A DNA stretch of 49,840 nucleotides from Bernardetia sp. (GTDB lineage Bacteria > Bacteroidota > Bacteroidia > Cytophagales > Bernardetiaceae), in NCBI RefSeq assembly GCF_020630935.1, contig NZ_JAHDIG010000006.1, positions 62,203 through 112,042 on the forward strand, in the 5' to 3' direction. Of the stretch, positions 22,865-42,100 are shown piece by piece; the stretch's first letter is position 1, and each line of letters starts with the position of its first letter. The position numbers were made by a program, and so were the translations under genes. The notes below the pieces were generated by a model. The model was not told the DNA's origin, ran no database searches, and worked only from the letters and a program-made list of their open reading frames with translations.

Positions 22865-23012
22865 ATTTCGTTGCTCTGCAACTTGTGTTTTACATAAAAG
22901 CTAATAAAGATGTATTTTCTATAAGATAAAATATAGTAGAAAGTTGCAGCGCAACATCATATTTGTAGAATTGATTGCCCTAGTCTATTTAATAGTTGCC
23001 GCACAACGAAAT
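22865..23012. repeat. Fold-back intergenic repeat, copy 1 (148 bp, uninterrupted)
   Basis: Bounded by ATTTCGTTGCTCTGCAAC (22865-22882) and its imperfect inverted mate GTTGCCGCACAACGAAAT (22995-23012; 15 of 18 positions pair). It contains a further 13-mer palindrome GTTGCAGCGCAAC (22943-22955). The same boundaries and internal TTTGTAGAA motif recur at 39975-40311. It fills most of the 444-bp gap between ileS and the P-loop gene; the remaining bases (22720-22864, 23013-23163) show no gene, only the ileS promoter candidate. Confidence 0.75.
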
Positions 23013-39974: not shown

Positions 39975-40311
39975 ATTTCGTTGCGCTGCAACTTTCAAAA
40001 TACTTGTAATGACTCATTTCTACAAATATTGTGTTGCGCTGCAACATTTTTAGACTACTTATTTGATGAAAGTATTTTTTCAAGATACCAGTTGCAGAGC
40101 AACCTGATGTTTGTAGAAGAGCATAGATAAATTGGAATAGAGTTGTAGCACTAGGGTAAACGCACGAAAAAAAAGTATAGCCATTTAAATCAAATAGAAG
40201 GTCTTTTTTACTTTGATTATTTAGATTACTCTGACAAGTAAAGTTTATTTAAAGCTAAGTGAGCTAGTATAAAAAGTTTCGTGCGTTTACCCTATTGTAG
40301 CACAACGAAAT
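39975..40311. repeat. Fold-back intergenic repeat, copy 2 (interrupted)
   Basis: Outer arms are ATTTCGTTGCGCTGCAAC (39975-39992) and GTTGTAGCACAACGAAAT. The latter is split by a 143-bp insert (40152-40294) plus its 9-bp target duplication, so the pieces are 40142-40151 and 40304-40311; 16 of 18 bases pair. Inner arms of 31 bp (40015-40045 and 40091-40121) pair at about 24 positions. It contains three 13-mers of type GTTGC-NNN-GCAAC (39979, 40033, 40091). Together with the insert it explains most of the 531-bp gap between 39919 and 40460; no gene is seen there. Confidence 0.75.
40143..40303. mobile_element. 143-bp MITE-like element with 18-bp TIRs and 9-bp target duplication
   Basis: The insert 40152-40294 has perfect 18-bp terminal inverted repeats (TAGGGTAAACGCACGAAA at the left, its exact reverse complement at the right), flanked by exact 9-bp direct repeats TTGTAGCAC at 40143-40151 and 40295-40303. 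It encodes nothing; the interior is AT-rich. Removing the insert and one duplication rebuilds GTTGTAGCACAACGAAAT, the terminal arm of the surrounding repeat, which is seen uninterrupted in copy 1. It is therefore a non-autonomous element presumably moved by a transposase elsewhere; the IS family is not identified (IS1, IS4 and IS256 families make duplications of about this size). Confidence 0.85.
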
Positions 40312-40459
40312 GTCATAAATTCAAAATTTTATTATCATATTACAAGAGAGTTTTATCATATTCTTGCCACCGACAATAATCTCATTAAAACTACAAAATA
40401 TTCCTACCTTGTTTCCGTTCTCTTATCGACTATTTGATTTGTTCCTATCTTCTCCTCAG

Positions 40460-42100
40460 ATGAAAATTATAAAAAATTCACAACCAGTTGTTTATTCTGT
40501 ATTATTAATAATTTTGATATTCAAAGTTAGTGCTATTTCTGCTCAAGATGCTAATTTGCTTCCACGTATTTTGCAACATCCAGATTCTGCACAAATTGAA
40601 GCGATAAATGTCTTGAACTCAAAAGGCAGAGAAACGAATCTTTCTGTTACACCAGATGGAAAATATTTATTTTTTATGAGTAGCCGAGGAGGGGAAGCGT
40701 GGTCGGTGCGTTCTGGAATGTATAAAAATCAAGTGCGCTACGATGGAGATATTTATTTTTCAAAAAAAGACCACAACGGCAACTGGACGGAAGCTAAAAA
40801 TTTAAAAGGCATCAATAGTTCTTCGGGGGAAGATGAGCCTTTTGTAACCCAAGACGGACAGCAAGTAGTTTTTCAGTCGTGGAGACGAAACTGGGTAGCC
40901 GAAGGAGGTCCTTATTATCAAGCTAAAGCAAAGGGCAATACGTGGACAGGAATGAGAGGATTGGGAGAAGGAATAAACCAATTTTTTAGAAGAGAATTTT
41001 CAAAATATGGAGGATATGCAACTGATGGAATGAGCGTTTCTTCGGATATGAACTGTTTTATTGTGGCTGCTGGAGCAAATTATAATGGTGATATGGATTT
41101 GTATTGGAGCAAAAAAGACTCTACTGGAAAATGGTCTTTGTGTGAGCAAATGCCAATTTCTACGCCAAAAGATGAGCGTTCGGTGTTTTTAGCTGCTGAT
41201 AACAAAACGATTTACTTTGCTTCTAATGGCTATGGTGGTTTTGGTGGGCTAGATATTTTCAAGGCTGTTTTAGATGAAAATGGCAATGCTTTAGAGATTT
41301 ATAATATTGGTGCGCCCTTCAACACAGAAAAAGACGATTATGGTTTTGTCTTGACGGCTTCTGGAGAGGCTGCTTATTTTGTGAGGGAAGGCGATATTTT
41401 TTATGCAGATTTAATCAATGCCTCGCCAGAGATAAAGCCTTCGCCTGTTTTGCTTTTAGAGGGAAATATAATAGGTTGTGATGGCGAACCCATAGATGCA
41501 AAAGTGAGTTTGTATGATGAAAATGACAGAGAAATTAGTGTTAGCTTTACCAATGCACGCAACAAAGGAGAGTATGTTCTTCTTATTCCGAATCCTCCAA
41601 AAACTAAAAAATCATACAAGCAAATCATAGAAACTACAAAAGGCTTTGATGAAGAACCATCTTTTGAGACGAAAAATGTAGAAATTCCAATTATAAAAAA
41701 ATATACTAAGCTAGAACTAGGAAACACAGCCATAACCGACTGCAAGGAAAATATAATCGAACTAGAAAACGTCTATTTTGCTTTTGATTCGGATAAGTTA
41801 GATGAGAAAGCGATTCAAGTTTTGAAAAAGCTCATAAAAACCTTTGAAAGAAATAGCTCTAAGAATCCCACACAAAAAATTATCTTGACAGGACACACCG
41901 ATTCGAAAGGTAGCAATAACTACAATCAAATTCTGTCTCAAAAAAGACTAGCATCTGTTCAAAATTTCTTAGAAAAGAATGGTATTTCAAGCGCAAAAAT
42001 CAGCATCACACCACAAGGCGAGCAAAGTCCAGCCCAAACCAACACCACCGAAAACGGACGCAGCAAAAACAGACGTGTGGAGATTGTGATACGTAAGTGA
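40460..42100 (+). CDS. PD40 beta-propeller-OmpA family protein
   Basis: A 546-residue exported protein from the ATG at 40460 (signal peptide ending AISA; the frame extends upstream only to a TTG with unlikely sequence). PD40/WD40-like blades: NLSVTPDGKYLFFMSSRGG, EDEPFVTQDGQQVVFQSWRR, DERSVFLAADNKTIYFASNG and YGGFGGLDIFKAV. A carboxypeptidase-regulatory-like segment about residues 340-400 (LEGNIIGCDGEPIDAKVSL) and a C-terminal OmpA domain (VYFAFDSDKLDEKA, GHTDSKGSNNYNQILSQKR). This is the common Bacteroidota envelope architecture, related to T9SS PorE, and should bind peptidoglycan. A hairpin at 42114-42131 follows. Confidence 0.85.
   Translation: MKIIKNSQPVVYSVLLIILIFKVSAISAQDANLLPRILQHPDSAQIEAINVLNSKGRETNLSVTPDGKYLFFMSSRGGEAWSVRSGMYKNQVRYDGDIYFSKKDHNGNWTEAKNLKGINSSSGEDEPFVTQDGQQVVFQSWRRNWVAEGGPYYQAKAKGNTWTGMRGLGEGINQFFRREFSKYGGYATDGMSVSSDMNCFIVAAGANYNGDMDLYWSKKDSTGKWSLCEQMPISTPKDERSVFLAADNKTIYFASNGYGGFGGLDIFKAVLDENGNALEIYNIGAPFNTEKDDYGFVLTASGEAAYFVREGDIFYADLINASPEIKPSPVLLLEGNIIGCDGEPIDAKVSLYDENDREISVSFTNARNKGEYVLLIPNPPKTKKSYKQIIETTKGFDEEPSFETKNVEIPIIKKYTKLELGNTAITDCKENIIELENVYFAFDSDKLDEKAIQVLKKLIKTFERNSSKNPTQKIILTGHTDSKGSNNYNQILSQKRLASVQNFLEKNGISSAKISITPQGEQSPAQTNTTENGRSKNRRVEIVIRK

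Follow-up and report, generated by a model that had tools for sequence, protein, structure and literature searches.

The insert at positions 40152–40294 (plus strand) of the window, meaning the whole stretch of 49,840 nucleotides from Bernardetia sp. that was analysed, is a real MITE and represents an ordinary kind of transposition. We consider it highly probable that it is a non-autonomous MITE moved by the ISAs1-family DDE transposase of a full-length insertion sequence (IS) elsewhere in the cell. The original prediction, a 143-bp non-coding element transposed into a pre-existing repeat, is in agreement with the copies, the duplications and the IS-shared ends described below. The perfect inverted ends claimed for the insert were read directly (18/18 bp). 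They consist of TAGGGTAAACGCACGAAA and its exact reverse complement, with the left terminal inverted repeat of 18 bp at 40152–40169 (plus strand), identical to the ends of a 1174-bp IS of the congener G002, and the right one at 40277–40294 (minus strand). The direct repeats of 9 bp proved exact as well, with TTGTAGCAC at 40143–40151 and again at 40295–40303 as the two copies of the target-site duplication. No other exact 18-bp inverted repeat within 400 bp was present in the whole window, and none of such kind was obtained in 100 first-order Markov simulations of it. None of the listed ORFs of at least 100 aa overlapped the 143 bp.

The MITE sits, together with the repeat that received it, between two divergently transcribed genes. 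It is located 5' of a gene with a periplasmic-binding-protein domain (PF01497; 39107–39928, minus strand) and 165 bp 5' of the ATG of a gene with OmpA (PF00691) and PD40 domains (40460–42100, plus strand), whose start at 40460 is our choice, the ORF as listed starting at 40364. The host repeat (39975–40311, no strand assigned) is REP-like and palindromic, with the arms ATTTCGTTGCGCTGCAAC ... GTTGTAGCACAACGAAAT and the MITE inserted in the right arm. Excision of the insert and one 9-mer yielded GTTGTAGCACAACGAAAT, two mismatches from the host arm GTTGCAGCGCAACGAAAT. By sequence comparison the arm of the second copy (22865–23012, no strand assigned) was indeed found uninterrupted, which makes it a paralogous empty site.

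The host repeat itself is a dispersed REP-like/MITE-like family. Its arm pattern ATTTCGTTGNNCTGCAAC had 40 matches in the own genome at up to 2 mismatches versus 0 for the control. Paired outer inverted ends like GGTGTACGACAAA were present at 7 of the 16 host-repeat loci scanned (among loci L185–L214 and the window), and a permissive search detected an exact 8-bp duplication at 3 of these 7. One cluster is adjoined by a Y1_Tnp gene (L214, 1003–1470). We take the family to be comparable to REP elements with Y1 (RAYT-type) transposases; short GTTGC hairpins, intergenic clusters and the Y1_Tnp gene beside one cluster are common to both. The outer inverted ends and the 8-bp duplications, in contrast, set the host repeat apart, and to our knowledge REPs do not carry such outer inverted ends or duplications.

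The search of the genome and its relatives that had been proposed for the insert showed that the element recurs: in addition to one degenerate copy, the own genome (4.75 Mb, 153 contigs) contains six that are complete, and congeners contain further ones. The six full copies were 98.6–100% identical and belonged to two sequence types that are distinguished by 2 of the 143 positions; each of them (6/6) was flanked by its own exact 9-bp duplication. The 18-bp termini are not confined to the insert, since they were found at 26 places in the own genome at up to 3 mismatches, versus 3 for a reversed control pattern. Of 38 other genomes searched, five gave MITE matches, all of them in the genus, and the MITE was absent from G003, as the sole one of six congeners, and from all 32 genomes searched outside the genus. 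For comparison, 28 distinct short elements of the genus were defined (80–200 bp, both ends within 3 mismatches), a count that omits one-ended copies such as L007, L158, L166 and L167 and includes two elements with runs of N (L018, L096) and two of deviating length (88 and 160 bp). Among the matches listed, 27 of the 28 carried an exact 9-bp duplication, the one without being L161 of G002. Flank similarity was limited to two pairs (59 bp at 81% and 167 bp at 76%); the same insert with the same flanks in distant relatives was not encountered, the flanks not being common to the copies. The 160-bp element of G001 (L173, 1405–1564) has similar ends, another interior and a 9-bp duplication and is perhaps a second MITE subfamily. 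An exact 18-mer in a Prevotellaceae MAG (L127) was rejected as an element and taken as chance, with a few chance matches expected in 257 Gb by our estimate; a second end was not found in that stretch at up to 3 mismatches.

A full-length IS with these termini was also searched for, as had been suggested, and the 1174-bp element of G002 was recovered with both 18-bp ends matching the MITE ends exactly. Its transposase scored 325.6 bits against NF033564 (ISAs1; cut-off 70) with two stops inside; taken separately, one of the three stop-free pieces lay above the cut-off (1.3e-50) and two below (7e-15 and 1.6e-17). A target duplication was absent at this IS and also at an 808-bp element of G002 with near-identical ends (L181). 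In G006 an ISAs1 element of 1162 bp with an open 372-aa frame, the end TAGGGCAACCGTACCAAA and a 9-bp duplication was identified. Duplications in the ISAs1 family range from 8 to 10 bp. The 18-bp ends begin with TAGGG, a start shared by the G006 element. G002 additionally holds CAGGG-type ISAs1 elements alongside its TAGGG-type IS, namely three of 1255 bp with exact 10-bp duplications (L253, L255, L257).

Thirteen contig ends of the own genome carry the 18-bp end at a distance of no more than 55 bp, either exactly (18/18; 7 contig ends, with one adjoining sequence) or with one mismatch (17/18; 6 contig ends, with a second adjoining sequence). Judged by eye, the two adjoining sequences look like the beginning of an IS resembling that of G002 and its end coding for the C-terminus. 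Of the 42 possible pairings of left and right contig ends, 2 were identical over the 9-mer, and another agreed at 8 of 9 positions. Because two end pairs match by a 9-mer, we infer two or more full-length copies of the IS in this genome, which presumably collapsed out of the assembly. The G002 transposase piece gave 0 matches in this assembly. An intact ISAs1 transposase was not found there, and the family model returned a sub-threshold fragment with two stops. Compared with six IS, the interior of the MITE had its best match with 14 bp of the G002 IS (E 0.002), which was taken as chance in AT-rich DNA. With no interior match longer than 14 bp, an origin of the MITE as a deletion product of one of these IS was rejected; the MITE therefore shares only its ends with them, i.e., the 18 bp and a few adjacent A-rich bases.

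Since the MITE ends bound an ISAs1 IS and the own IS-end pairs, an ISAs1-type transposase is the likely mover, and we infer from these sequences that the cell contains such an enzyme and that it mobilises the MITE in trans. The source of this ISAs1-family DDE transposase would be a full-length IS at another site in the cell, and the enzyme would bind the 18-bp ends and move the 143-bp DNA. Insertion would occur at cuts staggered by 9 bp, their repair giving the 9-bp duplication, and would in this case have hit one arm of the palindromic host repeat, already present in the spacer of the two divergent genes. Against this mechanism count the missing intact transposase in the own assembly, the two in-frame stops and the absent duplication of the G002 IS, the absent duplication of L181, the unmatched MITE interior and a start that deviates from the CAGGG stated for ISAs1 in PMC11946415. 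A transposase of another family recognising the same ends would be compatible with the limited sharing between MITE and IS and with the lack of an intact ISAs1 transposase in the own assembly. However, the transposase encoded between these exact ends in the G002 IS is of the ISAs1 family, the open ISAs1 element of G006 with similar ends also generates a 9-bp duplication, and the own IS ends pair by 9 bp, which renders another family improbable. The idea that the insert is not an insertion at all, but part of the arm structure of the host repeat, draws on its position within an inverted-repeat family. This was refuted by the sister arm at 22865–23012, which is without the insert, and by the sequence printed around the other five copies of this genome, in which no host-repeat arm is seen; its probability is practically nil.

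Finally, the insert might serve a function between the genes, as an RNA hairpin, terminator or promoter cassette, and be under selection for it, with mobility being secondary. In favour of this, most copies in the own genome and in four congeners keep a length of 142–144 bp despite the change in sequence, and the whole MITE folds with a z of -7.16. We attribute this strong fold to the pairing of the ends. The 107-bp interior, in contrast, folded no better than shuffled sequences (z of -0.05 and 0.45 for the two strands), and two-sided changes were seen in 2 of 43 predicted pairs with a covariation term of -0.16. The promoter motif TTTG-N17-23-TAnnTTTG was not found in the MITE and no Rfam match in the window. 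With interior folding, covariation, Rfam and promoter motif all unsupportive, an RNA or promoter role was rejected. Insertion sites moreover vary between genomes, so that a primarily functional element appears very improbable, even more so than a transposase of another family.

Copy numbers differ widely within the genus. MITE right ends (up to 3 mismatches) numbered 89 in G005, the MAG PFKD01 (Flexibacter sp. CG_4_10_14_3_um_filter_32_15; a 4.3-Mb draft genome), versus 0–6 in each of the six other genomes of the genus. This corresponds to about 88 elements, many at contig ends, since a palindromic derivative of 88 bp contributes two right ends. With up to 2 mismatches allowed, 219 end matches were counted in G005. 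An 88-bp near-perfect palindrome made from two MITE right ends (L068, 600–687) was observed with a 9-bp duplication of its own. Exact end matches amounted to at least 136, at least 107 of them within 130 bp of a contig end, as a lower bound from 120 stretches that include those of G006 and one Prevotellaceae record. Among the matches listed, L008–L126 (mainly G005) comprised 47 left and 54 right contig ends, with 5 others set aside. These ends formed at least 22 exact 9-mer pairings at no more than 20 sites, one 9-mer pairing four ways; among the same listed matches, none of the 11 shifted controls gave a pairing, lengths of 8, 10 and 11 bp gave none either, and a length of 7 bp gave 4. Contig ends of G005 in L047 and L110 showed a third kind of sequence, AATATTTATATTTA, after the same 18-bp end, which probably belongs to another element.

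MITE identities were calculated from 16 of the 28 elements (2 own, 2 of G001, 2 of G002, 4 of G005 and 6 of G006) and set against two genes. Mean MITE identity was 94.8% for G005–G006 versus 86.9 and 84.9% for the genes, and 94.1% for G005–G002 versus 85.2 and 85.7%. The MITEs of G002 and G006 were 94.0% identical and thus no closer than the genes (94.8 and 91.7%). G005 is not alone, as MITE pairs with G001 exceeded gene identity by 1.4–6.2 points. The comparison, for which two genes are a thin yardstick, hints at a horizontal arrival of the MITE in the G005 lineage; selection on the MITE is an alternative explanation of its high identity in G005. The MITEs of the own genome were 72.5–76.9% identical to those of four congeners, and the two genes 79.9–84.1% and 74.1–76.7% identical to those of all six.

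A further copy of 144 bp with the 9-bp duplication TCTAAATCT was detected in an IMG/VR contig (L279, 6088–6231) and differs little from a G005 copy (99.3% identity). On its two sides are matches to positions 3–169 and 363–750 of phrog_15220, a virion-protein family of 759 positions; the first ORF piece runs into the MITE, and a tape-measure-like gene adjoins. A contig of the G005 bin (L280, 1075–1214) contains this stretch as well, the MITE being at an identical position. L279 was consequently rejected as an independent capture, the alignment with the G005-bin contig extending over 4.9 kb at 99.4%; the number of mismatches, 25, is also the length of a run of N. Because the copy splits a virion-protein gene in IMG/VR and in the G005 bin, phage-like DNA is a MITE target and a possible vehicle. 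Higher identity of the G005 MITEs than of the genes and the phage-like copy both fit a scenario in which an ISAs1-type MITE lineage reached the G005 lineage by horizontal transfer, with phage DNA as a conceivable carrier, and then expanded in a burst to about 88 copies, with selection for transposition rather than host use holding length and interior. We put this scenario forward tentatively and regard it as rather doubtful.

For the comparison of the orthologous locus that had been recommended, G001 was used, where both flanking genes are adjacent. There, about 120 bp separate the start codons versus about 540 bp in the own genome, both values depending on our placement of the starts. The G001 spacer is without the MITE and without the host repeat and is not a base-exact empty site. 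With regard to landing sites, a frame of at least 150 aa was open at the MITE in 6 of 27 copies versus 66% of 934 random positions at the same loci; the 27 copies include the phage-like one, and 2 of 29 were omitted for short flanks. One own copy apparently splits a GDSL-lipase-like gene, of which the downstream piece alone matches the family, and at another the TAG of the element end creates an in-frame stop.

Porphyromonas gingivalis already provides examples of MITEs whose ends match an IS and of one MITE nested in another. According to the available text of PMC4596501, MITE239, MITE464/PgRS and BrickBuilt correspond to full-length IS of that genome at the ends but not in the interior, and MITE239_11 lies in BrickBuilt_18. 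The Bernardetia sp. MITE likewise combines IS-matching ends, an unmatched interior and nesting in a repeat. It differs in its ISAs1-type ends and 9-bp duplication, as the P. gingivalis ends match the IS5 family and BrickBuilt duplications vary in length (PMC4596501, available text). MITEPye1 of Paracoccus yeei is described in the accessible part of PMC11578231 as having inverted ends and direct repeats and being preferentially intergenic, and an IS of similar termini was deduced there to mobilise it in trans. The small intergenic design is similar, the partner differs, being of the IS1182 family (1–3 copies) in P. yeei and presumably ISAs1-type here. For the ISAs1 family, the available portion of PMC11946415 gives ends of 14–22 bp starting with CAGGG and a 10-bp duplication. 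Compared with ISAs1 (NF033564), the MITE is alike in its 18-bp ends, whose length falls within this range, the AGGG after the first base and a short duplication, and deviates in the missing transposase, the first base T instead of C and a duplication of 9 instead of 10 bp. An ISAs1-linked MITE was not described in the available text of PMC4596501, PMC5771137, PMC3281130, PMC3606827, PMC11946415, PMC4853749, PMC11578231, PMC3542288, PMC5756416, PMC9208149 and PMC4133298, of which PMC5756416 mentions three MITEs.

The nested insertion gives a time order of two repeat families, with the host repeat as the older one. With 0–6 right ends in six genomes and about 88 elements in a seventh, the genus provides a graded series for bacterial MITE dynamics, and the related full-length IS and the exact 9-bp duplications make the burst, its source and the route between species testable.
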